NCBI RefSeq assembly: GCF_036967205.1
Contig: NZ_CP146022.1
Location: 7,936,001-8,000,000, forward strand
Reading direction: 5' to 3'
Length of the DNA: 64,000 nt
Origin: Streptomyces sp. Q6
Lineage (GTDB): Bacteria > Actinomycetota > Actinomycetes > Streptomycetales > Streptomycetaceae
The position numbers were made by a program, and so were the translations under genes. The first letter of the stretch is position 1, and every line of letters starts with the position of its first letter. The notes below the pieces were generated by a model. That model ran no database searches. It was not told where the DNA came from and saw nothing but the letters and a program-made list of their open reading frames with translations. This document shows, one piece after another, positions 18,895 to 34,013 of the stretch.

Positions 18895-19778
18895 TCAGGG
18901 CGCCAGGCGCGGCCTCGAGGTCACGGCGTCCGGGACGGGGACCAGGACGATCGGGCAGGCCGCATGGTGCGCGGCAGCGTGGGCCACGACCCCCAGCCGG
19001 GGCCGGGCGGCGTGCGGCGCGTGGCGGCCGAGGATGGCGAGGGACGCGTGCCGGGCGGCGGCGATCACGGCCTGGGCGGGAACATCGTCGTGGCAGACCT
19101 CCTCCACCCGCACGCCGGGGTACTTGTCACGCCACGGCAGCAGGGCCTCGGTCAGCTGCCGTGCGGCGCGCCTGACCTGTGGCCGGCTGCCGTGGTGCGA
19201 GGTGGAGAGCGGGTACGAGCGCAGCGTCGGCCCGGGCGCGGCGTACAGCGCCCGCAGGGGCAGCCCGCGCAGCGCGGCCTCCTCGAAGGCGAAGGCGAAC
19301 AGCGCACCGGTGTCTGCCTGATCGTGCCCGGCGTCGACCGCCAGCAGGATCGGCCCGGGCGGCGGAGCGGGCCGTACGAGGGTGACAGGGAAGCCCGCCC
19401 CGGCGGCGACGGCGTCCGTGGTGGAGCCGACCACCAGCGGCGAGACGGTGCCGAGCCCCGGGACCCGATGACCAGCAACTCCGCCTCGTCGCCCGCCGCG
19501 AGGAGCGCCGCGCGCGGTGCGGCCCCCATGAGCCGCGTGTGGATCTCCAGGCGGGGACGGCGGCTGCGCAGCCGCTCGGCGGCCAGGTCCAGCGAGCGCA
19601 GGGACCAACGGCGCCGCTCGACCGCCTCCGCGGCGTCCGGGACGGCTCCGTACGAGGCGGGCCAGGCCGCCACGAGACGCAGGGCCGTGTCCCGGAGTTC
19701 GGCCTCGTGGGCCGCCCACTCGGCGGCCGAGAGACTGGCGGCACTGCCGTCGATTCCGGCGATGACGGGGCGGGGCAC
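18895..19778 (-). pseudogene. Two-domain universal stress protein with a frameshift
   Basis: The GTG at 19778 has GGAGGTGA 6 nt upstream and starts a USP domain, RPVIAGIDGSAASLSAAEWA, up to ELLVIGSRG. At about 19453-19456 the frame breaks: one base is missing where the family has SRGLGTV. The continuation in the next frame, LGTVSPLVVGSTTDAVAAGA, carries the rest of domain 1 and the whole of domain 2 to CPIVLVPVP. The missing base lies next to a CCCCGGG run, so a sequencing or assembly error is a real alternative to true inactivation. If the base were restored, the product would be about 293 residues, like the neighbouring two-domain USP. Confidence 0.8.
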
Positions 19779-20035
19779 GATCGCTCACCTCCGTGAGGAA
19801 GGGACGGACGAGGTCGCGTACCGGGCCCACTCTCCCGGCTGCGCCCCCGCCCGACGAGAGCATGTGGGCCCCACCCCAGGGCCGAACGGCCCCTGCCTGT
19901 AGGGGACTTCGCTGCGACGGACCGTCAGCCGTGCCTCAGGGGTGTTCGTCCTCTGCCTCCCCGGACGGCAGGTGAGGGTGCCTTCACGGCCCTCGTCGAC
20001 CGACTCTTCGCCAAGAACTGACAGCAAGAACTGTC
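19779..20035. other. Gap upstream of the USP gene
   Basis: No gene recognised. It holds the dyad at 19879-19893 and a 7-bp inverted repeat, CTGACAG (20018-20024) with CTGTCAG (20031-20037), embedded in a short repeat of AAGAACTG. The large hairpin at 20036-20084 follows. Confidence 0.5.
19879..19893. promoter_or_regulatory. Copy of the island's GGNCC-N4-GGCCC dyad
   Basis: GGGCCGAACGGCCCC, an almost perfect dyad, lies about 100 nt upstream of the frameshifted USP gene. Confidence 0.45.
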
Positions 20036-20084
20036 AGCGCACCGTGCCGGTCATCGACCACGACGACGACCGGCACGGTGCGCT
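20036..20084. terminator. 17-bp perfect hairpin downstream of SHOCT gene
   Basis: AGCGCACCGTGCCGGTC (20036-20052) pairs with GACCGGCACGGTGCGCT (20068-20084) across a 15-nt loop. It begins 14 nt beyond the minus-strand stop of the SHOCT-domain gene, the position of an intrinsic terminator, and would also insulate the USP promoter region. Confidence 0.75.
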
Positions 20085-20097
20085 GTCGGCGTCGACG

Positions 20098-20364
20098 TCA
20101 GCGTTTCGTGAGCGGGTCGGCCGTGTGCAGGACGGCCAGGCGCCCTCGGTACTCGTCCTCGTCGATCTCGCCCCGGGCGAAGCGCTCGGCGAGCAGCCGC
20201 TCGGGCGCGGCTGGTGCGGACGAACGCGAGGGCTCGGGAGGGTGGGGGAAGGCCCGGAAGATCAGGACGACGGCGGTGACGGTCAGCGCCCAGAACACGA
20301 GGGTGCCGACCGACATGCCGAACCAGCCCCAGCCACCCGGATCATGTCCGTTCCAGAACATCAT
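20098..20364 (-). CDS. SHOCT-domain small membrane protein
   Basis: 88 residues. A hydrophobic helix, MSVGTLVFWALTVTAVVLIF (about 15-35), is followed by a Pro-rich linker and a C-terminal SHOCT motif, RLLAERFARGEIDEDEYRGR. The SHOCT motif is a short oligomerisation-like element found at the ends of many small membrane proteins. GGGAGG 9 nt before the ATG at 20364 supports this start over upstream in-frame codons. It closes the stress island. Confidence 0.82.
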   Translation of the reverse strand: MMFWNGHDPGGWGWFGMSVGTLVFWALTVTAVVLIFRAFPHPPEPSRSSAPAAPERLLAERFARGEIDEDEYRGRLAVLHTADPLTKR

Positions 20365-20423
20365 GGCGAAGCACCTCCCAGTCATGTCATTGCCACTCTC
20401 GCCCACGCGCCGACACGAGGGCA

Positions 20424-20438
20424 GGGGCCGACAGGACC
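20424..20438. promoter_or_regulatory. Copy of the island's GGNCC-N4-GGCCC dyad (minus orientation)
   Basis: Read on the minus strand this is GGTCCTGTCGGCCCC, about 60 nt upstream of the SHOCT gene start. Confidence 0.4.
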
Positions 20439-20511
20439 TCGGAACGGGGCCCTTCCTTCCCCGCTCGGGTACGGGTAGCACGGTCTCTCCCGTCACCGAA
20501 CTTCCAGCCCG

Positions 20512-21417
20512 TCAGCCCTTCAGCCCCGACGACGTGATCCCCTCCCGCAGCGGTCGCTGCCCGATCACGAACACCACCACGGCGGGGATCATCGACAGCA
20601 CGACTCCCGCGAGCACGACGGAGATCGACCCCGTGCCGAGGTTCCCCTGGAGCGAGACCAGGCCGAGCGGCATCGTGAAGTTCTGGTTGCTGGTCTCCAG
20701 GATCAGCGGCCGGAAGAACTCGTTCCAGTGGTAGTTGAAGGCGAGGACCCCGACGATCGCGAGTCCCGGGGTCGCCAGTGGCGCGTACACCGAGCGGAAG
20801 ACACGCCACGGCCCGGCCCCGTCGATCATCGCCGCCTCGCCCAGCTCCTTCGGCATCGTGAGGAAGTACTGCCGCATCAGGAACGTGCCGAACGCGGTCG
20901 GGACCGCGGGCACGATCAGCGCGAGCAGCGTGTCCGTCAGCCCCATCCCCTTCAGGATCAGGAACACCGGCACGATGGTGACCTGGACCGGGACCATCAT
21001 CGTGGCGAGCACGAGCCCGAACAGCGGGCGCTTGAACCGGAAGTCGAGCCGCGCGAACGCGTACCCGGCGAGACCGGCCGTGATCATCTGGCCGACGGCG
21101 ATGAGGCCGGTCACCAGGGCCGAGTTGAGCGCGAAGAGCCAGACGTCGATCTGGTCGAAGACCTGCCGGTACGCCGACAGAGTGCCGTGCGCCGGGATCA
21201 GCTGCGGCGGCAGGTCGAAGGACTCGGCCGGCGAGCGCAGCGACGTGGACACCGTCCACACCACGGGCCCGATGGTGAACAGCGCGACGACGAGCAGTCC
21301 GCAGACGCGCGCGACGGTACCGAGCCGCCGCGCGGTGAGGGAGCCGACCCGCTCGCGCAGCCGGTCCGGCGAGGACGAGTGGGTGGACGAGGAAGGGGAG
21401 TACGACGCTGAGGTCAT
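20512..21417 (-). CDS. Sugar ABC transporter permease (MalG-type), fructan island
   Basis: 301 residues with six predicted membrane segments. The inner-membrane-component EAA loop appears as ELGEAAMIDGAGPWRVFRSV, which contacts the ATPase. MalG-type features include the N-terminal LFTIGPVVWTVSTSL and the C-terminal GSISVVLAGVVLSMIPAVVV. It is third in the operon binding protein - permease - permease and lies 17 nt after the first permease. No ATPase gene follows, so it probably uses a shared ATPase. The GH32 and fructokinase context points to a fructo-oligosaccharide or sucrose substrate. Confidence 0.9.
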   Translation of the reverse strand: MTSASYSPSSSTHSSSPDRLRERVGSLTARRLGTVARVCGLLVVALFTIGPVVWTVSTSLRSPAESFDLPPQLIPAHGTLSAYRQVFDQIDVWLFALNSALVTGLIAVGQMITAGLAGYAFARLDFRFKRPLFGLVLATMMVPVQVTIVPVFLILKGMGLTDTLLALIVPAVPTAFGTFLMRQYFLTMPKELGEAAMIDGAGPWRVFRSVYAPLATPGLAIVGVLAFNYHWNEFFRPLILETSNQNFTMPLGLVSLQGNLGTGSISVVLAGVVLSMIPAVVVFVIGQRPLREGITSSGLKG

Positions 21418-21434
21418 GGCGGGGGAGGGGCCTC

Positions 21435-22370
21435 TCACTGGTAATGCACGAAGCGGCGGCTGAGGCGGAACTGAAGCGCGGTCACGGCGAGGATCAGCAC
21501 GAAGAGCACCACGCCCACGGCCGAGGCCTCGCCGAACCGGAGCTGCTCGAAGGCGGTCTGGTAGAGGACCATCACCGCGGTGCGCGTCGAGTCGCCCGGC
21601 CCGCCGTCGGTGAGCACGTACGGCTGCTCGAAGACCTGTAGCGCGTTGATCACGCCGACCACCGAGGCGACGAGCAGGGTGGGCGAGAGCAGCGGGATGG
21701 TGATCCGCAGGTGCTTGCGCAGCCCGGTCGCGCCGTCCATCGCGGCGGCCTCGTGCAGTTCGCGCGGGATGTTGGCGAGTCCGCCGACGAACAGCAGGAA
21801 GGAGAAGCCGAATTGCTGCCACACGTAGACGAGGACGACCGCCGCCATGGCCCAGCCCTCGGAGGTGAGCCAGGGCACGGGGGAGGCGCCGACCTGTCCG
21901 AGCAGCCAGTTGACGACGCCGAAGTCCTGGTTGAACAGGTACTTCATGACGACCGAGATGGACGCCGCCGACAGCACGAGCGGGAAGAAGAAGGCGGAGC
22001 GCAGCGCCTGTTGGATCCATCGCGGCATCCGCCCTTGCAGCGCCAGCGCGAGGACGAGCGCGACGACGAGCTGGAGCGTCACGGCGAGGACCATGAACAG
22101 GAGCGTGTTGCGGAACGCGGTGAGGATGGAGGAATCCGCCGTCAGCTCGCGGTAGTTGGCGAGACCCGCGGGCGTGGGGGAGTCGATGACGTCCCAGTGG
22201 AAGAACGACAGGACCACCGAGCCCACGATGGGCACCACGGTGAAGACGACGACGCCGAGCACGGTCGGTGCGAGGAACAGCCAGGCGGTGACGCGCGCGG
22301 CGCGGCTCCGTCCGGCACGGGCGGGGATGCTCTTGGGGGTGCGCACGGGGGTACTCACAGGGGTGCTCAT
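21435..22370 (-). CDS. Sugar ABC transporter permease (MalF-type), fructan island
   Basis: 311 residues, six membrane segments, starting with a Thr/Pro-rich cytoplasmic tail and AWLFLAPTVLGVVVFTVVPI. The EAA loop is ELHEAAAMDGATGLRKHLRI. It pairs with the downstream MalG-type protein to form the channel. Its start overlaps the end of the binding-protein gene by 4 nt (ATGA-type), so they are co-translated. Confidence 0.9.
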   Translation of the reverse strand: MSTPVSTPVRTPKSIPARAGRSRAARVTAWLFLAPTVLGVVVFTVVPIVGSVVLSFFHWDVIDSPTPAGLANYRELTADSSILTAFRNTLLFMVLAVTLQLVVALVLALALQGRMPRWIQQALRSAFFFPLVLSAASISVVMKYLFNQDFGVVNWLLGQVGASPVPWLTSEGWAMAAVVLVYVWQQFGFSFLLFVGGLANIPRELHEAAAMDGATGLRKHLRITIPLLSPTLLVASVVGVINALQVFEQPYVLTDGGPGDSTRTAVMVLYQTAFEQLRFGEASAVGVVLFVLILAVTALQFRLSRRFVHYQ

Positions 22371-23812
22371 ATGTCACGCTCCATGGCGCGTTCCAGGTCC
22401 CGTTGCAGTGCCCGCAGGGCGGGCCTGACGCTGCCGGGGCTGCCGAGCGCGGTCGCGGTGTGCTTGGTCAGGGCGAGGTCGACGGCGGCGACCTGCGGCG
22501 GGGCCGGGATCGGCCCGGTGGTGGGGAAGCGGTCGAGGGTGTCGTAGAAGATCTCCCAGTGGGCGGGGCCGGTCTTCGCGTACCGCTCGGCGGTGAGCAT
22601 GGAGCGCCGCGCCGGGGTGGTCTGGTTCGCCTGGAACAGCCGCGTCATCACGTCCTTGCGGACCGCGTACTTGACGAACTCCCACGCCTCGTCCTGCCGC
22701 TTCGATGTGCGCAGGATCGCGTATCCGGCGGCCCCGTACTGGTGCCGCTGGGTGCGCCAGCGCGGGAAGAACTGCGCGTCGTACGCGTCCCGTTCGACAC
22801 CCGCCGCGCTCAGCCCGCCGGCCCAGAAACCGCCGGCCGGAGTGGCGCCGACCCGCCCGGTGGAGAACGCGCCGATCAGGTTCGTCCCGCTGCCGCCCTC
22901 GGGACGGGAGCACAGGCCGTCGTGGACGAGCGAGGCCAGATACTCGTAGACCTCCTCCACGCGCGCGTCCAGCGCCTGCGGGGTGGTCCAGCGGAAGCCG
23001 CCACCGCGTCCGCGCCGCGCCTTCGGCTCGTAGAAGGTGTCCCAGAGCCAGTCGCCGCCCGGGGCCTTGGACTCGCTGAGGATGTTCGTGCCGTTCGCGA
23101 AGAGCCACGGAACGACGCCGCCCCACAGGCGGTTGGTCCAGAAGAACGGGGTGAAGCCCCGGCCGCCGGCCCGCTTCATGTCGCGCAGCAGCCCGGTGAA
23201 GTCGTCGCGGGTCCAGTCGGCGGGCGGGAGCGTGGCGTGCGTGCGGTCGAGGACCTTCTTGCTGAGGTACATGTCGGCCGCGTTGAACTCGACCGGCAGC
23301 TGGTACAGCGACCCCTCGTACATCATCGACTCGACGAGCGAGGGGTGGACGTCGGCGAAGAACTCCCGCAGTTCGTCGGCGTCCCGTCGCACCCAGGGGT
23401 CGAGCGCGACGCCGAGCCGGTCGGCGAAGAGCTGCACGCCCTCGGTCGCCACGTACACCACGTCGGGGGCGCTGCCGGCCGCGATCTGGGTCAGGATCTT
23501 GGAGAAGAAGTCGCTCCAGTCGGTGGCCTGGACGGCGAGCAGCCGGACCTTGACGCCGGGGTGCAGCCGCTGGAAGTCCTCGACCAGAACGCTCTGCTGG
23601 CTCGGATCGATCGCCGAACCGAGGATGGCGACGGTGAGCATGGACCCGTCGCGGCCCGGGATGTCGGAGGCCGTGAGCCGGTCCCAGTGGGCGGCGGTGG
23701 AGGCGAGTCCGGCCGCCGCGAGGGTGTAGCCGCCGGCGCGCAGCAGGGTCCGGCGGCCGGGACCGGTACGGCGTGACGGGGCGGGAGCGGGGGACGGCAC
23801 TGGTGTCGTCAT
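22367..23812 (-). CDS. Extracellular sugar-binding protein with Tat-like signal, fructan island
   Basis: 481 residues of the solute-binding family 1 type. The N-terminus has a twin-arginine stretch, GPGRRTLLRAGG, and the hydrophobic segment YTLAAAGLASTAA. There is no lipobox cysteine, so it is probably Tat-exported rather than a classic lipoprotein, which is unusual for this family. The body begins SMLTVAILGSAIDPSQQSVL, with the later conserved PDVVYVATEGVQLFADR and the C-terminal WEFVKYAVRKDVMTRLF. It captures the sugar outside the membrane. It heads the operon and is preceded by operator copy 1 (23851-23865), 39 nt upstream of the start. Confidence 0.88.
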   Translation of the reverse strand: MTTPVPSPAPAPSRRTGPGRRTLLRAGGYTLAAAGLASTAAHWDRLTASDIPGRDGSMLTVAILGSAIDPSQQSVLVEDFQRLHPGVKVRLLAVQATDWSDFFSKILTQIAAGSAPDVVYVATEGVQLFADRLGVALDPWVRRDADELREFFADVHPSLVESMMYEGSLYQLPVEFNAADMYLSKKVLDRTHATLPPADWTRDDFTGLLRDMKRAGGRGFTPFFWTNRLWGGVVPWLFANGTNILSESKAPGGDWLWDTFYEPKARRGRGGGFRWTTPQALDARVEEVYEYLASLVHDGLCSRPEGGSGTNLIGAFSTGRVGATPAGGFWAGGLSAAGVERDAYDAQFFPRWRTQRHQYGAAGYAILRTSKRQDEAWEFVKYAVRKDVMTRLFQANQTTPARRSMLTAERYAKTGPAHWEIFYDTLDRFPTTGPIPAPPQVAAVDLALTKHTATALGSPGSVRPALRALQRDLERAMERDI

Positions 23813-23850
23813 GCCTGCCGTCCCGGGGCGATGGGGAACATCAAGTCGGG

Positions 23851-23865
23851 CCTAACTCGTGATAG
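23851..23865 (-). promoter_or_regulatory. Fructan operator copy 1 (ABC operon side)
   Basis: Plus strand CCTAACTCGTGATAG; on the minus strand CTATCACGAGTTAGG, identical to copy 2. It lies 39 nt before the binding-protein start, oriented toward it. It has the LacI-type partial dyad CTAWCACG-WGTTAG with a central CG. Confidence 0.8.
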
Positions 23866-23963
23866 TTGCGGTGACTTCCGGATGATGGGAGGGGCGGGAG
23901 GGTCGCGTCAAGAGGGTGGACCAAGGAATTTTCGCCCACCCCACACCCCTTGCGGGGCTTGAC

Positions 23964-23978
23964 CTATCACGAGTTAGG
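23964..23978 (+). promoter_or_regulatory. Fructan operator copy 2 (secreted GH32 side)
   Basis: CTATCACGAGTTAGG, exactly the reverse complement of copy 1 and 98 bp from it. It overlaps a -35-like TTGACC at 23959-23964, so bound repressor would block polymerase. The secreted GH32 gene starts 64 nt downstream. Confidence 0.8.
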
Positions 23979-24042
23979 TTACGTGCCCGAGGGGTCCGGC
24001 GCGGACGGCGCGACCCCCGCCCCCCGATCGAGAGGCCGCCCC

Positions 24043-25632
24043 ATGACGATCAGACCTGTGACCCGCCGAGCCGCACTCCTCGGGGCCTCGGCCCTGGGCG
24101 CCCTGGCCCTGCCCGCCCCCGCTGCCCGGGCCGGGACCGCGGCCGACGCCGGGACCGGAGCCGGAGCGAAGCCCAAGTCCACGACGGCGCTGGGCAGTTA
24201 CCGAGCCGCCTATCACTTCACGATCCCGGACAACTGGAAGAACGACCCGCAGCGCCCGATCTGGATCGACGGCGCGTACGCGTACTACACGCTCTACAAC
24301 GCCGACTACATCACCGGCGCCGAAGGCACCGCCTGGCGTCTCGCCACCTCCACCGACCTGGTGCGTCACAGCGACCAGGGCGTCGCGCTGCCGAAGGACA
24401 CGACCGCCGCGGGCGACGCCTGGTCGGGCAGCGCGGTCGTCGACGAGGAGAACACGGCCGGCTTCGGCGCGGGCGCGGTGATCGCCCTCGTGACGATGGA
24501 ACCGGACGCGGCGGCCGACTCCCAGGCGCAGTACCTGTGGTACTCCACCGACTCCGGCCGCACCTTCCGCCCGTACGGCACGCGACCGGTCCTGGCCAAC
24601 CCCGGGGTCAAGGACTTCCGCGACCCCAAGATCGTCCGCGACACGGACCGCGACCGCTGGGTGATGGCTCTCGCCGAGCGCGACAAGATCGGCCTCTACA
24701 CCTCCGGCGACCTCACGTCCTGGACGTACCGGAGCGGCTTCGTGCGCGACGGCTACGGCACCCTCGAATGCCCCGACCTGTTCCGCATCAAGGCCGCGGA
24801 CGGCACCTCGCACTGGGTCCTCGCCGCGAGCGCCAACGGCTCAGCGCGGGGACTGCCCGCCACCTACGCCTACTGGACCGGCGACTTCGACGGCGAGACC
24901 TTCACCGCCGACGCGGACGCGCCGCAGTGGCTGGACCACGGCCCGGACTGGTACGCGGGCGTCACCTGCGAGAAGCGGGCGGCGGACGGCACGGTCGACC
25001 CGGCGGCCCGGTACGCCTTCGCCTGGACGAACAACTGGGAGTACCCCCACAACACCCCCACCCTCATCGCCGACGGCTTCAACGGCACCGACTCGATCAC
25101 CCGGGAGATCACCCTCCAACGGGCTGGCGACGGGACCTACTTCCTCGCCTCGCGTCCCACCCCGGCCCTCGACGCCTACGTCACACGGACCCAGCGGCTC
25201 GGTGACGTGACGGTGGACGGCGCCAAGACCCTCGACCACACGGGCACGGCCTACGAGATCCGCGGCGAACTGCGGTGGACCCCCGGCAGCACCGAGAACG
25301 TCGGCCTTCAGCTCCGCAAGGCCCCCGGTGGGACCCGTCACGTCGACGTGGGTGTGTACGTCGCGGGCGGCTACGCCTACGTGAACCGTGGCGGCACGCT
25401 GTATCCCGGCGGCACGCGCGAGACCCACACGCCGGTGGACGCGAGCGCCGGGAAGGTGGCGCTGCGGATCCTCGTGGACCGCACGACGGTGGAGGTGTTC
25501 GTGGGCGACGGCCGCTATGTCCACACCCACCAGGCGTTCGGCCTGCCCGGCGACGACCGTGTCGCCCTGTACGCCTCGGGCGGCCCGGCCGTCTTCGGGG
25601 ACCTGGAGATCCGCGAGTACGGACTGGGCTGA
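24043..25632 (+). CDS. Secreted GH32 fructan hydrolase (levanase/fructanase-like), Tat-exported
   Basis: 529 residues. The Tat signal is TRRAALLGASALGALALPAP with AxA cleavage near residue 30. The five-bladed GH32 propeller carries WKNDPQ (nucleophile D68), FRDPK (D194) and LECPD (acid/base E242). A C-terminal beta-sandwich follows from about residue 380, ending VALYASGGPAVFGDLEIREY. The usual WMNDPNG motif is WKNDPQR here, a variant that suggests a subfamily different from plain invertases. It releases fructose or small fructo-oligosaccharides outside the cell for the divergent ABC importer. GAGAGG precedes the ATG. Levan versus inulin preference cannot be told. Confidence 0.9.
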   Translation: MTIRPVTRRAALLGASALGALALPAPAARAGTAADAGTGAGAKPKSTTALGSYRAAYHFTIPDNWKNDPQRPIWIDGAYAYYTLYNADYITGAEGTAWRLATSTDLVRHSDQGVALPKDTTAAGDAWSGSAVVDEENTAGFGAGAVIALVTMEPDAAADSQAQYLWYSTDSGRTFRPYGTRPVLANPGVKDFRDPKIVRDTDRDRWVMALAERDKIGLYTSGDLTSWTYRSGFVRDGYGTLECPDLFRIKAADGTSHWVLAASANGSARGLPATYAYWTGDFDGETFTADADAPQWLDHGPDWYAGVTCEKRAADGTVDPAARYAFAWTNNWEYPHNTPTLIADGFNGTDSITREITLQRAGDGTYFLASRPTPALDAYVTRTQRLGDVTVDGAKTLDHTGTAYEIRGELRWTPGSTENVGLQLRKAPGGTRHVDVGVYVAGGYAYVNRGGTLYPGGTRETHTPVDASAGKVALRILVDRTTVEVFVGDGRYVHTHQAFGLPGDDRVALYASGGPAVFGDLEIREYGLG

Positions 25633-25651
25633 GCTCCCTCGCTCCCGGTCC

Positions 25652-25683
25652 CCGGGGTGCCCGCCGACGTGCGGGCACCCCGG
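25652..25683. terminator. Bidirectional terminator between GH32 and fructokinase
   Basis: The 13-bp stem CCGGGGTGCCCGC (25652-25664) pairs with GCGGGCACCCCGG (25671-25683), with a 6-nt loop. It lies 19 nt after the GH32 stop and 23 nt beyond the fructokinase stop of the convergent gene. Confidence 0.8.
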
Positions 25684-25706
25684 CACGGGGTCAAGTGCTG
25701 CTCGTC

Positions 25707-26612
25707 TCAGACGAGTTCATGGGCGTACGGGGGTTCCGCTCCCGCCCGGGACACCGTGACCGCGGCCGCCCGCGCGGCGAAGGAGAGCACGTCGCGCCAT
25801 CGGGCCTCGCCCAAGGCCGACATCGCCTCCCCGGACAGCGCGTCGTGGGCGGCGAGGCGGTGCAGGAGCGCGGCGTTGACCGTGTCGCCCGCACCGATCG
25901 TGTCCGCGACCGGCACCCGTACCGCGGGCACGGTCACCTCGCCCGCGCGCGTGAGGACGGTCAGACCCTCGCCGCCGCGCGTGATCACCACGGCGGAAGG
26001 GCCGTGCCCGAGCCAGGAGTCGGGGTCGCCGCCCAGCCAGCGGGCGTCGTCGTCGGACAACTTGACCAGCGTGGTGCTCGGCAGCCAGGAGCGGAAGCGG
26101 GCCCGATAGGCGTCCGGGTCAGGGATTATTCCGGGCCGGATGTTCGGGTCGAGGGCGGTGCACACGCCGCGCGCGTGGGCGCGGCGCAGCAACTCCTCGT
26201 ACGCGCTCGCGCCCGGTTCGAGCACCAGGGAGCAGGTGCCGAACGACACCGCCCTTGTCCCGTGCGGAAGTTCGCGCGGCGCGCTGAACAGGCGGTCCGC
26301 GGTGCCTTCGACGTAGAACGTGTAGCCGGCCGAACCGTCCGGGCCGAGCGCGGCCACCGCGAGCGTCGTCGGCTCGTCGCCGCGCTGCACATGCGTGACG
26401 TCGACTCCCGCCGCCCGCAGGCCGTCGAGCAGCTCCTGCCCGAACGCGTCGCGCGACAGACGGGACAAGAACGCGGTCCGCTCGCCGAGCCGGCCGAGCG
26501 CCACGGCGGTGTTGTACGGGCCACCGCCACGCTTGGGGGCGAGGGGGGCCAAGGGGCCGCAGCCGGGCTGCGGGACGAGGTCGACGAGAGCCTCGCCGGC
26601 GACGACGATCAC
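25707..26612 (-). CDS. PfkB-family carbohydrate kinase (fructokinase)
   Basis: 301 residues. The ribokinase fold starts IVVAGEALVDLVPQPG with the GG hinge in APKRGGGPYNTAVALGRLG. The C-terminal catalytic motif DTIGAGDTVNAALLHRL contains the anion hole and base Asp. It phosphorylates fructose released by the cytoplasmic GH32. The start is the GTG at 26612, with AAAGGAA 8 nt upstream; the frame is open further upstream into a repeat that duplicates the initiation region. It is transcribed divergently from the cytoplasmic GH32, with operator copy 3 between them. Confidence 0.9.
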   Translation of the reverse strand: MIVVAGEALVDLVPQPGCGPLAPLAPKRGGGPYNTAVALGRLGERTAFLSRLSRDAFGQELLDGLRAAGVDVTHVQRGDEPTTLAVAALGPDGSAGYTFYVEGTADRLFSAPRELPHGTRAVSFGTCSLVLEPGASAYEELLRRAHARGVCTALDPNIRPGIIPDPDAYRARFRSWLPSTTLVKLSDDDARWLGGDPDSWLGHGPSAVVITRGGEGLTVLTRAGEVTVPAVRVPVADTIGAGDTVNAALLHRLAAHDALSGEAMSALGEARWRDVLSFAARAAAVTVSRAGAEPPYAHELV

Positions 26613-26725
26613 GGGCGGATTCCTTTCGGGGCGATGGGGGACGCGGGCGGGTTCGTTCGGGGGCGGTGACGATCGCGAGCGGGTTCCTTCGCGGTGGTGG
26701 CGATCACGGGCGGATTCCCTCCGGT
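26600..26725. repeat. Three imperfect copies of the fructokinase translation-initiation region
   Basis: The segment GATCACGGGCGGATTCC (start codon and Shine-Dalgarno of fructokinase read on the other strand) occurs at about 26608-26624 and again at 26703-26719. A decayed middle copy, GATCGCGAGCGGGTTCC, lies at about 26670-26686. Only the first copy is in frame with the kinase. The outer copies are 95 nt apart, which is not a multiple of three. Confidence 0.7.
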
Positions 26726-26957
26726 GTCTGCGGGTCGTCGCGGCGGGGGCGGCGCTGGGGCCCGCCGGGGACTCGGCTGGTGGCCTGGTCGGGACCGGGG
26801 CGCGACCCCGGTCGGAACCTGAGGCGCGCTCCGGGCCGAGCCTGCGCACGGTCCTGGCGGGGCGCGGGACAGGGCCCCGTCCGGTCCCGGCGCGAGGCCC
26901 TCGCGGGACCCGGCGTGCGGTACCGCCGGGGACTCGACGTATACGGGAGCAGCGAAG
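26726..26957. other. Non-coding leader between kinase and cytoplasmic GH32
   Basis: A GC-rich stretch with repeated GGGACCGGGG-like pieces and no recognisable gene. It probably holds the minus-strand promoter of the fructokinase. No promoter was assigned. Confidence 0.45.
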
Positions 26958-26972
26958 CTATCACGTGTTAGG
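26958..26972 (+). promoter_or_regulatory. Fructan operator copy 3 (cytoplasmic GH32 side)
   Basis: CTATCACGTGTTAGG differs from copies 1 and 2 at one base (T for A). Its core, CTATCACGTGTTAG, is an almost perfect 14-bp palindrome around CACGTG. The match to copy 2 extends two bases further (TT). It lies 88 nt upstream of the cytoplasmic GH32 start and may also control the divergent fructokinase. Confidence 0.8.
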
Positions 26973-27059
26973 TTGCGCTGCGCAGGGCGTACGTGAAGGG
27001 CCGTCGGCCCGGTCCGCCGCCCCGCACCCCCCGTTCACGACGTCGAGGAGTCATGCCGC

Positions 27060-28487
27060 ATGCCGCACGTCACGCACCTCGCCCCGCAGGCCCCCGGCAG
27101 CGTTCAGGCCGCCGACCGTTCGGCGCCGCGCCACCATGTGCGGCCCGCCGCGGGCAACTGGTGCAACGACCCCAACGGGCCGCTCCACCACGACGGCCGC
27201 TACCACCTCTTCTTCCAGCACAACCCCCACGAACCGGTGTGGGGCGACATCCACTGGGGCCACGCGTCGAGCCCCGACCTGGTGCGCTGGACCGACCACG
27301 GCATCGCGTTGGAGCCCAGCCCCGAGCTGCCCGACCGCCTCGGCGCCTGGTCCGGCTGCGCGCTCGTCGAGGACGGCGTGCCGACCGCCGTCTACACCGG
27401 GATGAACCGCCACGACGGCCTCGGCACGGTCATGCTGGCGCGCGCCACGGACCCGGAGATCACCCGCTTCGACGCGCTGCCCCGCCCGGTGGTCGACGGC
27501 CCGCCGCCGGGGCTCGACCTGCTCGCCTTCCGGGACCCGTACGTCTTCACGTACGAGGGCCGCCGCTGGGCCCTCGTCGGCGCGGGACACCGGGGTGCCG
27601 TGCCGCGCCCCGACGTCCTCGTGTACCGGATCGACGAGGAGTCCCTCGACGCGCCCTGGGAATGGGCCGGTTCACTCCTCGACGCCGAGGCTCCCGCCGC
27701 GGCCCGGCACGCGATGCCGGCCACCGCCTGGGAGTGCCCCGCGCTGATTCCGGTGCGGGAGGGGCGGTGGCTGCTCATCCTGTCGCTCTGGATCGACGGC
27801 GTCACCTACACGGCGACCCACCTCGGCGGCACGCTCCGCACCGAGGGCGACGGACTGCGGTTCGTCCCGGACGACGGCGGACTCCTCGACCACGGCCGGG
27901 ACTTCTACGCCCCCACCGCGCTCGTCGAGCACGACCGGGTCCTGGTGTGGGGGTGGAGCTGGGAGTCCCGTACCGAGGCCGAATCGGTGGCCGCGGGCTG
28001 GGCCGGCTGCCTCACGTACCCCCGCGAGATCGGGCTGCATCCCGACGGCACCGTGCGGCACGCCTTCGCCCGTGAACTGACCGCCCTGCGCGGACGAGAG
28101 CTGCCCGTCGGAGCCGAACTGCCGCCCGCGTACGAGATCCAGGCCGACATCCGCACGCGGGAACCGGACGCCGAAGTGACCGTGCGCCTCGGCGACGCGG
28201 TCTCGGTCCGCGTCAATCCCACACGCGGCACGGTGACGCTGGACCGCACGGAGGTTCCCGCCTCGGCGACGCGCCCGTATCCCCGTACCGGCACGGTGAC
28301 CGCCACCGGCCCGACCGGTGCCGACGGCCGCCTCCGCGTCCTCGTCGACGGACCGCTCGTCGAGGTGATCTGGGACGAGCGGGTGGCGCTCACGGAGAAG
28401 ATCCATCCGGCGCCGCGGGGCAGGCTGGCGATCGAGGTCGCGCGGGGCGGCGCGGAGGTCGAGGTCGCGGCGTGGGAACACCCGTGA
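27060..28487 (+). CDS. Cytoplasmic GH32 beta-fructosidase (sucrose/fructo-oligosaccharide hydrolase)
   Basis: 475 residues and no signal peptide. GH32 motifs: NWCNDPNGP with nucleophile D37, the FQHNPHEPVWGDIHWGHA block, FRDPY (D159), and WECP with acid/base E225. The C-terminal sandwich starts about residue 350. It splits imported sucrose or short fructans to feed the fructokinase. Start: GAGGAG ends 9 nt before the ATG at 27060; an ATG at 27053 is in another frame. The gene is followed after 18 nt by the convergent LacI repressor. Confidence 0.92.
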   Translation: MPHVTHLAPQAPGSVQAADRSAPRHHVRPAAGNWCNDPNGPLHHDGRYHLFFQHNPHEPVWGDIHWGHASSPDLVRWTDHGIALEPSPELPDRLGAWSGCALVEDGVPTAVYTGMNRHDGLGTVMLARATDPEITRFDALPRPVVDGPPPGLDLLAFRDPYVFTYEGRRWALVGAGHRGAVPRPDVLVYRIDEESLDAPWEWAGSLLDAEAPAAARHAMPATAWECPALIPVREGRWLLILSLWIDGVTYTATHLGGTLRTEGDGLRFVPDDGGLLDHGRDFYAPTALVEHDRVLVWGWSWESRTEAESVAAGWAGCLTYPREIGLHPDGTVRHAFARELTALRGRELPVGAELPPAYEIQADIRTREPDAEVTVRLGDAVSVRVNPTRGTVTLDRTEVPASATRPYPRTGTVTATGPTGADGRLRVLVDGPLVEVIWDERVALTEKIHPAPRGRLAIEVARGGAEVEVAAWEHP

Positions 28488-28505
28488 CCGGGGTGGCCGG
28501 GCGGG

Positions 28506-29537
28506 TCAGTCGTGCGCCGGGGCCGCCACCGAACCGCGGCTGACGACCGGGCAGTCCAGGCGCCGCACCCGCTCCGTCGCGACGGGTTCGCCGGACTCCA
28601 CCGAGTCGAGCAGGGTGTCCACGGCGGCGGCGCCCATCGCGTGATGCGACAGCGCCACGGTCGTGAGGGCCGGGACCAGATGCGCGGCCATCTGGTCCTG
28701 GTCGTCGTACCCGACCACCGACAGCTCCTCGGGAACCTGGATGCCGAGCCGGGCGGCGGCCAGCAACACCCCGGTCGCGACACGGTCGTTGGCGCACACG
28801 ACGGCCGTCGGCCGCTCGGCCGCGTCCAGCAGCCGCAGCGCGGCGGCGTGTCCCTCGTCGATCTGCCAGCCGACCCGCCGCGACCAGCCCGGTCGCACGG
28901 ACAGGCCCGCCGCGCGCAGACCGTCGGTGAAGCCGCGGGCCCGGTCGTCGGCGGCGATGTTGCCCTCGGGGCCGCCCACCAGGGCGATGTCCCGATGTCC
29001 GGCCGTGAGCAGCACGTCCACGGCGCTGCGTCCGCCGGCGTGCTCGTCGGTGACCACGGCGGCGTACGAACCCTCCTCGCGCGGAAGGCAGTTGGCGAGA
29101 ACGGTCCGTGCCGGATCGAGGCCCTCGGGGACGTCCGTCACGTTCAACTCCATGGCCGCGTAGACGAATCCGTCGACCCGCCGGGCCCGCAGCTCGGCGA
29201 TCGCCTCGGCCTCCGCCGCGCTGTCGCTGCGCGACTCCATGAGGAGGATCTGGTGTCCGCGCGCGCGTGCCGCCTCCATCGCACCGAGGACCATGCGCCC
29301 CGCGAACGGGCTCGTCGCGATCGAGTCGCTGAGCATGCCGATCACCCCGGTGCGCCGCCCGCGCAGCGAACGCGCCACCTCGTCCGGACGGTAGCCGAGG
29401 GCGTCGGCCGCCTCCTTGATACGGGCCTGCGTCCGGGCCGACAGATTCCCCTCGGCGCGCCCGCTGAAGACGAACGACACGGCTGCCCGCGAGACTCCGG
29501 CGCGCTCGGCGACGTCGCGGGCGGTGGGGCGCTTCAC
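28506..29537 (-). CDS. LacI-family repressor, likely of the fructan regulon
   Basis: 343 residues. The N-terminal helix-turn-helix and hinge are TARDVAERAGVSRAAVSFVF and ARTQARIKEAADALGYRPDE (about 4-55). The remainder is the periplasmic-binding-like sensor, with GHRDIALVGGPEGNIAADDR and VVGYDDQDQMAAHLVPALTT. It sits at the end of the fructan island and is the only regulator there, so it most likely binds the three CTATCACGWGTTAGG operators. No copy of that operator was found before its own start, so it may not be autoregulated. Confidence 0.9.
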   Translation of the reverse strand: MKRPTARDVAERAGVSRAAVSFVFSGRAEGNLSARTQARIKEAADALGYRPDEVARSLRGRRTGVIGMLSDSIATSPFAGRMVLGAMEAARARGHQILLMESRSDSAAEAEAIAELRARRVDGFVYAAMELNVTDVPEGLDPARTVLANCLPREEGSYAAVVTDEHAGGRSAVDVLLTAGHRDIALVGGPEGNIAADDRARGFTDGLRAAGLSVRPGWSRRVGWQIDEGHAAALRLLDAAERPTAVVCANDRVATGVLLAAARLGIQVPEELSVVGYDDQDQMAAHLVPALTTVALSHHAMGAAAVDTLLDSVESGEPVATERVRRLDCPVVSRGSVAAPAHD

Positions 29538-29567
29538 GGCAGCGGCTCCTTCAGGGGGCGGCGGGAG

Positions 29568-29605
29568 TTGTCCGCTCGGGCACGCTCACGTGCCCGAGCG
29601 GACAA
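29568..29605. terminator. 17-bp perfect hairpin between cupin and LacI genes
   Basis: TTGTCCGCTCGGGCACG (29568-29584) pairs with CGTGCCCGAGCGGACAA (29589-29605) around a 4-nt loop. It lies 110 nt after the minus-strand cupin stop and 30 nt before the LacI start on the same strand. A terminator of the cupin operon is most likely; an operator for LacI autoregulation is the alternative, though it does not resemble the fructan operators. Confidence 0.7.
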
Positions 29606-29717
29606 GAACAGTGGGCTCCAGTGTGCCTCCTCCTCCTGCGAGGGCCGTACGCGGCATCACATCGAGTGCGTCGGCACACGCCGGCACCCCGGCTCCCCGG
29701 CCCCGGTCAGGCGTCGC

Positions 29718-30137
29718 CTATCGGGTGTCGCCGGTGGCGGAGAGCGCCGCGGCGTACTGCTCGTCGGTGACCGGCTCGAGCCACGTGGTGCCGTCGCCCT
29801 GGCCGTCGCCGACCACGATGGCGATGTGGGACATGAACGTGGCGTCCGTCGCGCCGTGCCAGTGCTCCTCGCCCGCGGGGCACTTGACGGTGCCGCCGGC
29901 GCCGACCCGTACGACGTCTCCGTCCCGGGTGCCGACCAGGCCGACGCCCTCGGTGACGTAGAGGGTCTGGCCGTTGGCGTGCGCGTGCCAGTGGGTGCGG
30001 GCGCCGGGGGTGAACCGGACCAGGCCCACGGCCAGACGGGCCGGTTCAGCGGGCGCTTCGAGCAGGTTCAGGTAGACGTCGCCGGTGAAGCGCTCGGCCG
30101 GGGTCTTGACGGTGGGGGTCGACGTGACGAGTTCCAT
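29718..30137 (-). CDS. Cupin-domain protein
   Basis: 139 residues forming one cupin barrel. Metal-ligand motif 1 is HWHAHANGQTLYV (about 49-61) and motif 2 is GEEHWHGATD. Such single-domain cupins often accompany SDR and carboxymuconolactone-decarboxylase-like genes in small detoxification operons. It is last in the three-gene operon, 28 nt after the SDR. No substrate can be assigned. Confidence 0.85.
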   Translation of the reverse strand: MELVTSTPTVKTPAERFTGDVYLNLLEAPAEPARLAVGLVRFTPGARTHWHAHANGQTLYVTEGVGLVGTRDGDVVRVGAGGTVKCPAGEEHWHGATDATFMSHIAIVVGDGQGDGTTWLEPVTDEQYAAALSATGDTR

Positions 30138-30165
30138 GAGTCCTTCTCCGTTGCTGTGGTGCGGG

Positions 30166-31008
30166 TCAGACGGCGTCCGCGTGGGCCAGGCCCGAACCCG
30201 AGCCGCGGGAGGCTTCGACCTGGGCGAGGAGTTCTTCGGCCTTGGCCTCGACGGCCTGGAGGCAGTCGTCGCCGGCGATGAACCGCAGCGGCGGCTCGTC
30301 GAGTTCGGCGACCTCGACGAGGGCGTCGGCGAGCTTGACCGGGTCCCCGGCCTGCTGCCCGTTCATGGACTCCCAGACCTTCTTGGTCTCCGCGGTGCGC
30401 TCGGCGTAGTCGTCGAGGGAGAGTTCCGCGTACGTGGTGGAGGAGTCCACCAGGAGTTCGGTGCGGAAGAAGCCGGGCTCGACGATGGTGGTGCGGATGC
30501 CGAACGGCTCGACGTCGTGGCGGAGGGACTCCATGAAGCCCTCCACGCCGAACTTGGCGGCCGAGTAGGCGACACAGAAGTCGACGCCGACCACGCCCGC
30601 GAGGGAGGAGACGGTGATGATGTGCCCGGAGCGCTGGGCGCGCAGGACGGGCAGGGCGGCGCGGGTGACGTTCATCGGGCCGAACAGGTTCGTCTCCAGT
30701 TGGGCGCGGACCTGCGCGTCGGAGAGCTCCTCGAAGAAGCCCGCGTAGAAATTGGCGGCGTTGTTGATCAGTACGTCGATGCGGCCGAAGCGGTCGACGG
30801 CGGCCCGGACCGCGGCCTCGGCGGCGGCCGGGTCGGTGATGTCCAGGGCGGTGGCCAGGAGGTTCTCCTGCTCGCCGCCGAGGGTTTCCAGGACGCGCTC
30901 GGGACGGCGCCCGGTGGCCACGACCTGGTGGCCGGCGGCCAGGGCCTGGCGGGCGATGTCCGCGCCCAGGCCGCGCCCGGCGCCGGTGATGAAGAAGACC
31001 TTGCTCAT
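30166..31008 (-). CDS. Short-chain dehydrogenase/reductase
   Basis: 280 residues of the classical SDR fold: cofactor site TGAGRGLG (about 8-15), NNAAN, the catalytic Ser of ITVSSLAG, and Y-x3-K in YSAAKFGVEG. A lack of an Arg or Asp signature after the second strand leaves NAD versus NADP open. The longer C-terminus (about 90 residues beyond the active site) is typical of the actinobacterial SDRs paired with MmyB-type regulators. It lies 57 nt after the CMD-like gene in the same operon. Confidence 0.88.
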   Translation of the reverse strand: MSKVFFITGAGRGLGADIARQALAAGHQVVATGRRPERVLETLGGEQENLLATALDITDPAAAEAAVRAAVDRFGRIDVLINNAANFYAGFFEELSDAQVRAQLETNLFGPMNVTRAALPVLRAQRSGHIITVSSLAGVVGVDFCVAYSAAKFGVEGFMESLRHDVEPFGIRTTIVEPGFFRTELLVDSSTTYAELSLDDYAERTAETKKVWESMNGQQAGDPVKLADALVEVAELDEPPLRFIAGDDCLQAVEAKAEELLAQVEASRGSGSGLAHADAV

Positions 31009-31065
31009 GCGGGGTGTGCTCCGTGCGTGAGGTGTGCTGTGGGTGTCGCGTGATGTGCGGTGGGC

Positions 31066-31389
31066 TCAGCCGGCGTCGCGTTCGTCGGCGATCTTCTTGA
31101 GCCGGGTGATCGCGGTCATGGCGTTGGGCCAGCCCGCGTAGAACGCCAGGTGCGTGATCGCCTCGGACAGTTCCTCGACGCTGAGTCCGTTGTCCAGGGC
31201 GACGCCCAGGTGGTACGGGAGCTGCTCGCCGCGGTACAGGGCGGCGAGCACGCTGACGGTGACCAGGCTGCGGTCGCGCGGTGACAGACCGGGCCGCTCC
31301 CACACGTCGCCGAACAGGACGTCGTCGGTGATCTCGACGAGCTTCGGCGCGATCCCGGCCAGCTCCTGGGGTGCGGACTGCTTCGGCAT
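31066..31389 (-). CDS. Carboxymuconolactone decarboxylase (CMD) family protein
   Basis: 107 residues. The family helix pattern is visible in DRSLVTVSVLAALYRGEQLP and YHLGVALDNGLSVEELSEAI, followed by THLAFYAGWPNAMTAI. The CxxC redox pair of AhpD is absent, so it is more like the decarboxylase or lyase branch. The start at 31389 has CTGGAG 6 nt upstream. It is the first gene of the operon, divergent from the MmyB-like regulator. Confidence 0.86.
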   Translation of the reverse strand: MPKQSAPQELAGIAPKLVEITDDVLFGDVWERPGLSPRDRSLVTVSVLAALYRGEQLPYHLGVALDNGLSVEELSEAITHLAFYAGWPNAMTAITRLKKIADERDAG

Positions 31390-31609
31390 GACGGCTCCAG
31401 AGTGCGAAGGGGGCGTACCGGCACAGGCCACTGTGTGGCCCGGCCTGTCGTGCGGCAGCCGCCGCGGTCTGGCCCCGGATACCGTCCGGGAGGCCCCAGC
31501 TGCTGCCGATGTCCAGGAAATCGCAGGTCAAAGTGGTGGAGAAGGGTCTGGCGTTACAGGTACCGACAGGACCCCCCACAGGTGCGCCGTCCGATCTAGC
31601 CTGGAATGC

Positions 31610-32476
31610 GTGAGCACCGAGAGCGACATCCGCGAGTTCCTGGCCTCCCGCCGCGCCAGGATCACCCCGCAGCAGGCGGGACTGCCCGCCTACGGCGGCA
31701 ACCGCCGCGTGCCGGGCCTGCGCCGCGAGGAGGTCGCCCTGCTCGCGGGCGTCAGCATCGACTACTACGTCCGCCTGGAACGCGGTCACCTCGCCGGCGC
31801 GTCGGACGAGGTCCTCGACTCCCTCGCCCACGCCCTCCAGCTCGACGACGCCGAGCGCGCGCACCTCTACGACCTCGCCCGTGCCGCCGCGAAGCGGCCC
31901 GCCCGCCGTACGAAGCGTGTGCGCGGACCGCTGCCGGACAGCGTCCTGCGGGTGCTGCACTCCATGACGGACTCCCCGGCCTTCATCCGCAACGGCCGCC
32001 TCGACGTCCTCGCCGCCAACGACCTGTGCCGCGCCCTGTACAGCCCGCTCTACGCGGAGAAGGGCCGGCATCCGGTGAACATCGCCCGTTTCCAGTTCCT
32101 CGACCCCGCCGGGCCCGACTTCTTCCCGAACTGGGAGGAGTCCGTGAACACCACCGTGTCCCTGCTGCGCACCGAGGCCGGGCGCGCCCCGGGCGACACC
32201 GAGCTGACCGGCCTGATCGGTGAACTGGTCACCCGCAACGACGAGTTCCGCACCGCCTGGGCCAGGCACAACGTGCGGCTGCACCACACCGGCCGCAAAT
32301 CCTTCCGGCACCCCGTCGTCGGCGAGATCACCCTCGACTTCGACGCCATGGAACTCCCCGCCCGGCCCGGCCTGACCCTCACCGCCTACAGCGCCCCGCC
32401 GAACACCCCCGACCACGACCGGCTCCACCTCCTCGCCGCCTGGGCCGCCACCGAGAACGTGACCGCACCGCGGTAG
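31610..32476 (+). CDS. Helix-turn-helix regulator with MmyB-like ligand-binding domain
   Basis: 288 residues. The N-terminal XRE-type HTH (about 25-80) reads RVPGLRREEVALLAGVSIDY and YYVRLERGHLAGASDEVLDS. The C-terminal MmyB-like domain begins LRVLHSMTDSPAFIRNGRLD and ends LHHTGRKSFRHPVVGEITLD. This family often controls a divergent SDR, as here. The GTG at 31610 starts the conserved N-terminus; there is no Shine-Dalgarno, so a leaderless transcript is possible. It is the likely repressor of the CMD-SDR-cupin operon. Confidence 0.88.
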   Translation: MSTESDIREFLASRRARITPQQAGLPAYGGNRRVPGLRREEVALLAGVSIDYYVRLERGHLAGASDEVLDSLAHALQLDDAERAHLYDLARAAAKRPARRTKRVRGPLPDSVLRVLHSMTDSPAFIRNGRLDVLAANDLCRALYSPLYAEKGRHPVNIARFQFLDPAGPDFFPNWEESVNTTVSLLRTEAGRAPGDTELTGLIGELVTRNDEFRTAWARHNVRLHHTGRKSFRHPVVGEITLDFDAMELPARPGLTLTAYSAPPNTPDHDRLHLLAAWAATENVTAPR

Positions 32477-32547
32477 CCGCCCGGCCGCACCACCGTCGTC
32501 CGCCGGTCCAGCCATCAGGGGCCCGGCCGACCCGCGCGCCGGAGGCG

Positions 32548-33618
32548 TCACCTGCCGCGGACGCGATCCGGCACCGGCAGCATCGCCAGATGGGCGATGT
32601 CCGCGGGCGGCGGCGTGGACACCGACCACAGCCGCGGGGGACACCCGTCGGCCACCGCGGCCGGGGCGTCCGTCAGGTTCATCCGCTCGCGCAGCCGGCC
32701 GTAGAAGTCCATCGGGGCGAGGCGTACCGCGCGCAGCCGGCGCGGCGCCGCGTACACCGCGATCCAGTCACCGGGGTCCAGGACGCCGCGCAGCTGGCCG
32801 TCGATGCTGACCGCGGCCTGGCCGGACCGTTCGAGGATGCGCAGGGCGACGGGTTCGTCGGCGGCGGCGACGATGGACCGGTTGAACGCCATGTGCGGAG
32901 CCACCGGCGTGAAGACGAGGGCGTCGGCGCGCGGCGAGACCACGGGGCCGCCGGCCGCGAAGCTGTACGCGGTCGAACCGGTGGGGGTGGCCACCAGGAG
33001 CGCGTCGGCGGAGTAGGCGGCCAGCAGCCTGCCGCAGAGATAGACGCCGACGGACACCTGGCGGTCGCGGGTGAGTTTCTCCACCACGATGTCGTTGAGC
33101 GCGGTGACGCTCAAGGGGGTGCCCCATTCGCCGTCGCCCTGGAGATCGGGGCGCACCGGGGGCGGCGGCATCATGCGGCCACGGCCGTACTCCACCCAGT
33201 CCGCCACATCCTTGGGGACCTCCAGACGGCGGGAGGCGCGCAGGGCGAGCAGCATGCGGCTGTCGACCTCGAACCGGCCCTCGTGCACCGCGTCCAGCGC
33301 CGCGCGCACGTCCTCGGCCGACACGTCGGTGAGGAAACCCACGCGTCCGAGGTCGACCCCGAGCACCAGCGCCTCGTCCTCCACGGCGAGTCGTGCGCCA
33401 CGCAGGAAGGTGCCGTCGCCGCCGAGCGTGACGATGAGATCGGGATGGCCCGCGGCCGCGAGTTCCGCACGGTCGTCAGGCGGCCCTTCGTCGTGCCACG
33501 CGTCGATGTCGGTGCACCGCACGGCGTGCTCCTCGCACCACGCGCGGACCACCCGGGCCGCTTCCACGGCCTCGGCCCGCCCGCCGTGCACGACCAGGCC
33601 CACTCGGTTCACTGTCAC
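32548..33618 (-). CDS. NAD kinase paralogue
   Basis: 356 residues. The signature LIVTLGGDGTFLRGARLA (GGDGT at 66-70) and the later ADALLVATPTGSTAYSFAAG are both present, as is the NE/D site region. NAD kinase makes NADP from NAD and ATP. It is longer than typical bacterial enzymes (about 290-300 residues) because of a Pro-rich insertion, GRMMPPPPVRPDL, around residue 150 and a C-terminal tail. It stands alone, not in the usual hemolysin-recN neighbourhood, so it is probably a second copy in this genome. Confidence 0.9.
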   Translation of the reverse strand: MTVNRVGLVVHGGRAEAVEAARVVRAWCEEHAVRCTDIDAWHDEGPPDDRAELAAAGHPDLIVTLGGDGTFLRGARLAVEDEALVLGVDLGRVGFLTDVSAEDVRAALDAVHEGRFEVDSRMLLALRASRRLEVPKDVADWVEYGRGRMMPPPPVRPDLQGDGEWGTPLSVTALNDIVVEKLTRDRQVSVGVYLCGRLLAAYSADALLVATPTGSTAYSFAAGGPVVSPRADALVFTPVAPHMAFNRSIVAAADEPVALRILERSGQAAVSIDGQLRGVLDPGDWIAVYAAPRRLRAVRLAPMDFYGRLRERMNLTDAPAAVADGCPPRLWSVSTPPPADIAHLAMLPVPDRVRGR

Positions 33619-33716
33619 TGTCGCCTCCCAGGCCGTCGCCGCTCGCGGCGGGCGGGGGACGCACGCGACCCCGCGTTCGGAGTGCGGGCCCCGGACCGAC
33701 TCCGTAGCGTCAAACT

Positions 33717-34013
33717 ATGACAAACGGCCCGTTTCCGCTGAACAACGGTGTACGGATCCCCGCCCTCGGTCTCGGTGTCCTCCAGAGCCCGCCCGAGGTC
33801 ACCGCCGCCGTCACGGAGGCGCTGCGCGTCGGCTACCGCCGCGTCGACACCGCCGCCGCGTTCGGCAACGAGCCCCAGGCCGGTGAGGCCCTGCGCGACA
33901 CGGACGTCGCCCGCGACGACGTGTTCCTGGAGACCAAGGTCTGGATCAACGACCACGGAGAGGACGCCACCGCGCACGCCTTCGAGAAGGCGTCCCGAGG
34001 CGTGAGCCCATGA
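33717..34013 (+). pseudogene. Truncated aldo/keto reductase
   Basis: 98 codons covering only the first third of an aldo/keto reductase (family about 275 residues): LNNGVRIPALGLGVLQSPPE, then YRRVDTAAAFGNEPQAGEAL with the catalytic Asp but Phe where the proton-donor Tyr should be, then LETKVWINDHG. After this it runs into unrelated codons and stops. The substrate barrel and NADPH site are missing. It starts with a Streptomyces-like promoter gap but can only make a fragment. Its stop overlaps the next ATG. Confidence 0.75.

Follow-up and report, generated by a model that had tools for sequence, protein, structure and literature searches.

A probable LacI-controlled levan regulon in Streptomyces sp. 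Q6 and the operators of its relatives

In a 64,000-nt stretch of the Streptomyces sp. Q6 genome (NZ_CP146022.1, positions 7,936,001 to 8,000,000; hereafter the window), an island of carbohydrate genes carries three near-identical short palindromes and one gene for a LacI-family protein. Does this LacI protein act at the three sites, and which fructan do the genes serve? An earlier note on this DNA had described a complete fructan regulon made up of a secreted GH32 enzyme, an importer, a cytoplasmic GH32, a fructokinase and a LacI regulator. We compared the island with related loci of the same genus and of other actinobacteria.

Genes, operator sites and probable substrate

Domain searches agree with the gene inventory of the earlier note (Table 1). 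The three operators are located exactly where it had placed them, with CTATCACGAGTTAGG at operators 1 and 2 and CTATCACGTGTTAGG at operator 3. The GAGTTAG or GTGTTAG half is the gene-proximal one in the window and in relatives, which bears out that each operator is aimed at its gene. Operator 3, said to be nearly a perfect palindrome, departs from one by a single base pair within its 14 bp. The centres of the predicted operators lie ~46, 72 and 95 bp before the three gene starts. LacI-family operators are as a rule even palindromes with a central CG, and more than 75% of the sites are found at 30-140 bp, according to the text of PMC4052901; the three sites are likewise even palindromes with a central CG near the starts of their targets. 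By these features, and by their distribution among the genus genomes (below), they appear to behave as LacI-family operators.

Table 1. Features of the island (positions in the window). Operators and promoter are predicted; a hyphen separates the two halves of an operator.
Feature	Position	Strand	Evidence
ABC importer permease 2	20512..21417	-	PF00528 E 3.5e-13; orthologs in relatives' importer operons
ABC importer permease 1	21435..22370	-	PF00528 E 3.1e-14
ABC importer substrate-binding protein, first gene of the operon	22367..23812	-	PF01547 E 4.1e-24; ATG 23812
Operator 1, predicted, importer	23851..23865	-	CTATCAC-GAGTTAGG; CTATCAC-GAGTTAG in 4/4 LacI-A-only importer loci
Predicted importer promoter	23882..23911	-	TTGACG, 18-bp spacer, CATCAT; by eye; same in L041, L119
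Operator 2, predicted, secreted GH32	23964..23978	+	CTATCAC-GAGTTAGG; 112 bp from operator 1
Secreted GH32, endolevanase-like	24043..25632	+	PF00251 E 1e-62; ATG 24043; twin-arginine start by eye
PfkB-family kinase, probably fructokinase	25707..26612	-	PF00294 E 4.7e-38; GTG 26612
Operator 3, predicted, cytoplasmic GH32	26958..26972	+	CTATCAC-GTGTTAGG
Cytoplasmic GH32, invertase-like, without visible signal sequence	27060..28487	+	PF00251 E 3e-58; ATG 27060
LacI-family regulator, subclade A2	28506..29537	-	PF00356 and PF13377; recognition helix SRAAVSF

A scan of the window with up to 3 mismatches gave 5 strand-wise matches, every one at the three known places (100 shuffles of the window: mean 0.60, largest 3). 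The earlier note had proposed a scan of the genome and regarded a motif spread over it as damaging to its claim. We found CTAWCACGWGTTAG at exactly 3 sites in the 8.95-Mb genome (reversed control pattern: 0), all of them before carbohydrate genes of the island. With 2 mismatches allowed there were 17 matches genome-wide, 6 of which are the same three places on both strands. The remaining 11 compare with 13 for the control, and thus give no sign of more sites in the genome.

The LacI protein has a LacI helix-turn-helix domain (PF00356, 36.9 bits, cut-off 27) and a periplasmic-binding-protein-like sensor domain (PF13377, 124 bits, cut-off 26.5), as expected of a family member. The best NCBIfam match of the kinase is fructokinase at 115 bits, under the cut-off of 450, and the cytoplasmic GH32 scores 161.9 bits with TIGR01322, under the cut-off of 356.4. 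Two strong GH32 matches were found in the whole genome, both in the island; a third is weak (24 bits, cut-off 22.1). By eye, the substrate-binding protein begins with a twin-arginine stretch and lacks a cysteine close to the N-terminus to which a lipid could be anchored. A twin-arginine start without a lipid-anchor cysteine is uncommon for such substrate-binding proteins in Gram-positive bacteria.

The word "complete" in the earlier note overstates the case in two respects. Domain searches of the island genes detected no ABC ATPase. One OB_MalK-type ATPase over the cut-off and one match under it are coded in the genome, both outside the island, and single ATPases can serve several sugar importers, Streptomyces lividans included, as stated in text of PMC7658222. 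The fructokinase start and the centre of operator 3, the nearest one, are ~353 bp apart, versus ~55 bp in the related locus L041, and control of this gene by an operator is putative. Four imperfect copies of a ~33-bp repeat in 31-32 bp steps (26597-26724; 67-82% like the first copy) are found at and upstream of the fructokinase start; L041, where the gap is shorter, has no such copies. The repeats may have increased the distance between the fructokinase and operator 3. A perfect 17-bp inverted repeat with a 4-nt loop (29568-29605), perhaps the terminator of the cupin gene, lies between lacI and this upstream gene. In another part of the window, a single open frame (13621-18057, plus strand) carries polysaccharide deacetylase, family-2 glycosyltransferase and acyltransferase-3 domains.

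The secreted GH32 has the GH32 N and C domains, and its nearest kinship is to a characterised endolevanase; its putative secretion signal is a twin-arginine start recognised by eye. The best solved relative is endolevanase LevB1 (9h8i, E 5.4e-153, residues 51-524 aligned), which by its name alone we take to be the Bacillus licheniformis enzyme of PMC9881289. The second best is levan fructotransferase 4fff (E 1.1e-102), and the similarity to inulinases is much weaker (best 8i12, E 6.2e-48). A LevB1 endolevanase is known from B. licheniformis (text of PMC9881289). These matches make levan the likely substrate. Because the two nearest solved relatives are levan enzymes, "levan regulon" is the best-fitting name; the "fructan" of the earlier note holds and can be narrowed to levan. 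It is rather unlikely that sucrose or inulin is the main substrate instead: the module of cytoplasmic GH32 and fructokinase has a LacY-type symporter in other loci, which would suit sucrose, and inulinases do match the secreted GH32, much more distantly; the two levan enzymes, its best solved relatives, argue against both substrates.

The motif and its regulators among relatives

The motif was found in 59 of 392 genus genomes with 65 hits in all (56 CTAACACGAGTTAG, 5 CTATCACGTGTTAG and 4 CTATCACGAGTTAG). The perfect palindrome CTAACACGTGTTAG was absent from the 65 motif hits of the 392 genomes; every site keeps one imperfect half. The LacI search, in which the 5 best first-look candidates were scored per genome, detected the protein at E <= 1e-70 in 66 genus genomes, or 64 after setting aside two genomes with 47-48% identity. 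Both motif and LacI (clade A or B, below) are present in 58 genomes, the motif only in 1, the LacI only in 6 and neither in 327 (Fisher p 3.4e-61, a value that overstates independence since the genomes are related). The motif stands before importer or GH32 genes in all 58 genomes having both, G128 and G183 included; in G197 the aligned importer sequence extends 7 nt beyond the motif site. G187 has the motif with no related gene nearby, and no such LacI was found there with all candidates scored. Of the six genomes in which the LacI is present but the exact motif is not, three (G302, G084 and G271) carry variants differing by one base ahead of the importer, and G021 carries one ahead of the GH32 gene; no substrate-binding protein was found in G336, and the sixth genome, G001 (79% complete), was left out of the locus comparison. 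When every first-look candidate was scored, a single LacI of the group was found in the window's own genome (91 candidates) and likewise in G103. In a sample of the phylum, such a LacI was detected at E <= 1e-70 in 2 of 396 genomes (5 candidates each), both of this genus.

In a tree with two distant LacI proteins, the LacI relatives form clades A and B (100/98 and 98/88), and the branch separating the clades has 100/100 support in a second tree. The residues at the two specificity positions of the recognition helix are H-T in 61/61 LacI-B proteins and R-A in 14 of 15 LacI-A proteins (R-S in the other); the third recognition position is F in 76/76. In a LacI-B locus the importer and the secreted GH32 face each other, and LacI-B and another GH32 gene are also present.

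The importer operator is CTATCAC-GAGTTAG in all four loci with LacI-A only, which are the window, L041, L119 and L185 (no LacI-B in the genome at E <= 1e-60). Of 55 LacI-B importer operators, 50 are CTAACAC-GAGTTAG, four are one-base variants that all retain AA at the fifth and fourth bases from the centre, and one (L187) is CTATCAC-GAGTTAG. CTAACAC is also found at the importer in 3/3 loci with both regulators and in L190, a piece with no LacI in it. The secreted-enzyme operator is CTTTAAC-GAGTTAG in 51/51 LacI-B loci and in 4/4 loci with both regulators; the four LacI-A ones carry CTATCAC (two), CTAGCAC (one) or CTGTCAC (one). L190 has CTTTAAC-GGGTTAG and CTTTATC-GAGTTAG at the secreted enzyme, and one locus has a second copy of this operator, CTTTACC. 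CTATCACGTGTTAGG is present in 10 of 12 LacI-A-type GH32 loci, and the remaining two have one-base variants. In the first count, importer sites had to begin with CTA and the others had to fit CTNNNNCGNGTTAG with at most one mismatch. In the repeat count the gene-proximal CGNGTTAG was fixed and the other half was free, with the same outcome except for the L126 variant, which drops out because it has no central CG. As the outer half was left free, the counts were not imposed by the search pattern.

Operator bases vary together with the LacI recognition residues. A strict one-to-one code of residues and bases was rejected, in view of the A-type importer operator in L187 (a LacI-B locus) and the variable LacI-A enzyme operators. 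Besides this importer operator, L187 (positions 14970 and 15048) has CTGTAACGAGTTAGG as an additional site between the usual two, and its genome also has a LacI-A. The text of PMC2978694 pairs two recognition residues with bases 5 and 4, counted from the centre, and the third residue with base 6. The importer operator kinds differ at base 4 and the enzyme operator kinds at bases 5 and 3, of which base 3 falls outside the pairing given in that text; base 6 is T in both kinds and the third residue is F in both clades. The TVSR subgroup of the same text has TVSR at AA-17 to AA-20 and G at NT-6; here we found AVSF in 76/76 proteins and T at NT-6. Since LacI-A/B lie outside the TVSR group, the pairing as given there is a guide and makes no prediction for them.

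How independent is the contrast? The window, L041 and L119 form one clade in quick, midpoint-rooted importer and secreted-enzyme trees (99 and 100 SH-aLRT); as they stand apart as a single clade, the contrast of regulators and operators is mainly one split. A reciprocal case was found in Saccharopolyspora (L050), with a GH32 of the window's cytoplasmic type (62%) and a LacY-type symporter (PF01306). This genome has one LacI of the group, of the B clade, and the operators are CTAACAC-GAGTTAG aimed away from the GH32 and CTTTAAC-GTGTTAG towards it; the long branch of this LacI (0.53-0.56) makes the case support and not proof. In Nocardiopsis (L051) a LacI-A is found beside a secreted GH32 that falls on the other side of the enzyme tree, and no operator was detected before that enzyme with up to 3 mismatches. 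We regard the contrast as one main split plus one reciprocal case, with one exception.

The sites could in principle be bound by another regulator coded elsewhere while the neighbouring LacI controls something else. A search to 3 mismatches found no operator copy near the window's lacI gene, which suits this explanation and leaves autoregulation without a site there, and a Streptomycetaceae genome has on average ~32 LacI-family regulators (text of PMC4052901). It is nevertheless improbable, given that the motif and this LacI group occur together in 58 of the 59 motif genomes and that the operator bases vary with the recognition residues of this very LacI. The same two observations, both from sequence comparison, strengthen the prediction in the earlier note that the operators belong to the island's LacI.

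Predicted promoters and mode of control

Operator 1 starts 16 nt downstream of the -10 box in the predicted importer promoter, and 39 of 56 LacI-B-type importer promoters show a loose TTGAC..CATCA-like pattern. In many of 14 LacI-B-type enzyme promoters inspected by eye, TTGACC and a -10-like box flank the operator. Two promoter candidates for the window's secreted GH32, TTGACC (overlapping the operator) and TTGCGG-19-TAGGTT, were considered and neither is convincing. With the importer operator just downstream of the predicted promoter, repression would block early transcription, and such a block is the likeliest mode at the importer promoter.

These comparisons make it highly probable that the LacI protein is the repressor of the importer, the secreted GH32 and the cytoplasmic GH32 through the three operators and that it is released by a levan breakdown product. 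In the absence of sugar, LacI would sit on the three operators and shut off the transcripts of the importer operon and of the two GH32 genes. The inducer would be a product of levan breakdown (levan oligosaccharide, sucrose or fructose) that binds the sensor domain, upon which LacI would leave. The secreted enzyme would then cut levan and the importer would bring in the fragments, probably powered by an ATPase whose gene is outside the island. Inside the cell, the cytoplasmic GH32 and the fructokinase would complete the breakdown. The sites, the genes and their conservation are observed, while we infer LacI binding, the inducer and the sign of regulation from the LacI family. It is likewise improbable that LacI activates, or represses only with a second factor, and that the sites are positive control elements: the secreted GH32 of the window offers no convincing promoter against which to place operator 2, but operator 1 downstream of the predicted -10 box is in a repressor position, the LacI-B enzyme operator lies between -35- and -10-like boxes, and most LacI-family members bind DNA without ligand according to the text of PMC4052901.

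Origin of the arrangement and relation to known systems

A LacI-A-type GH32 faces a LacY-type symporter in 9 of 12 loci (L043, L045-L048, L051 and L119-L121; PF01306 was confirmed for L043 and L120). Between the two is an operator pair 24 bp apart, and the fructokinase is next in the 8 loci where it was seen. In L122 neither symporter nor fructokinase was seen, and no LacY match was detected in the window's island (searched over 18001-34000) or in L041. We consider the unit of GH32, symporter and fructokinase in the relatives a csc-like sucrose module. In E. coli the Csc sucrose regulon comprises CscR, CscB, CscK and CscA. The LacI-A module of the relatives resembles it in gene content, with a LacY-type symporter and a fructokinase facing a cytoplasmic GH32 and a LacI of its own; the window differs in having no symporter, and hence is not of Csc type, and in having an ABC importer and a secreted endolevanase-like enzyme. 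The window would then combine a levan module (secreted enzyme and ABC importer) with a csc-like module without its usual symporter, under one LacI-A-type regulator; we infer both this composition and the order of events in the joining of the modules.

Nested in LacI-A (93/96) is a subclade A2 (6 rows, 100/99) that includes the window's LacI. Genome G783 has an A2 protein with a levan module (L185) and, on other contigs, a second LacI-A (L188) and a sucrose module (L045). In the window, L041 and L119 both modules are found together with a single LacI of the group. The operators of the divergent pair, between which DNA looping may occur, are spaced 112 bp in the window, L041, L119 and L185; the spacing in 56 LacI-B-type pairs is 79-82 in 47 and 113-127 in 9. 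Two further A2-type LacI genes, each 87% identical to the window's, were noticed. One (L120, 15477-16289) has one TGA inside and is located past the fructokinase in a locus with two regulators; the other (L184, 9530-10552) has none of the query genes within the fetched 20 kb.

A plain swap, in which the LacI of the csc module directly replaced LacI-B, was rejected, as the separate subclade A2 and the arrangement in G783 contradict it. We lean slightly towards a natural exchange of regulators that the loci show in different states, in which operator bases track the regulator and not the target gene, and in which the modules of the window fused after loss of a LacI-A paralog. In such an exchange, levan genes would carry LacI-A-type half-sites (CTATCAC and variants) under LacI-A and LacI-B-type half-sites (CTAACAC, CTTTAAC) under LacI-B, even in genomes with both regulators. 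Reciprocally, the LacI-A-type GH32 and symporter of Saccharopolyspora L050 would have come under LacI-B with LacI-B-type operators. In the window one LacI-A paralog would have been lost and the sucrose and levan modules fused under the remaining one. Within the exchange reading the fusion would need no operator change, because both LacI-A paralogs share the recognition residues.

The text of PMC4052901 gives a good account of local sugar regulons of the LacI family and of how they diversified after duplication; the groups of CscR/ScrR (sucrose) and BfrR (fructo-oligosaccharide) described there share with the island the even CG-centred palindrome, the distances of the sites and a small regulon beside its regulator. 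The word "levan" is absent from the main text of that paper, and no title on a Streptomyces levan regulon was among the matches listed from the open-licence literature. We conclude that the island represents an ordinary kind of gene control, one more local sugar regulon of the LacI family, and no new type of system. Genes that family models name no further than "LacI family" and "GH32" are here given a DNA site together with a regulator and a probable substrate. The relatives, with two regulators and two operator kinds that are found together and apart, are a test set for the joint change of a repressor and its site.
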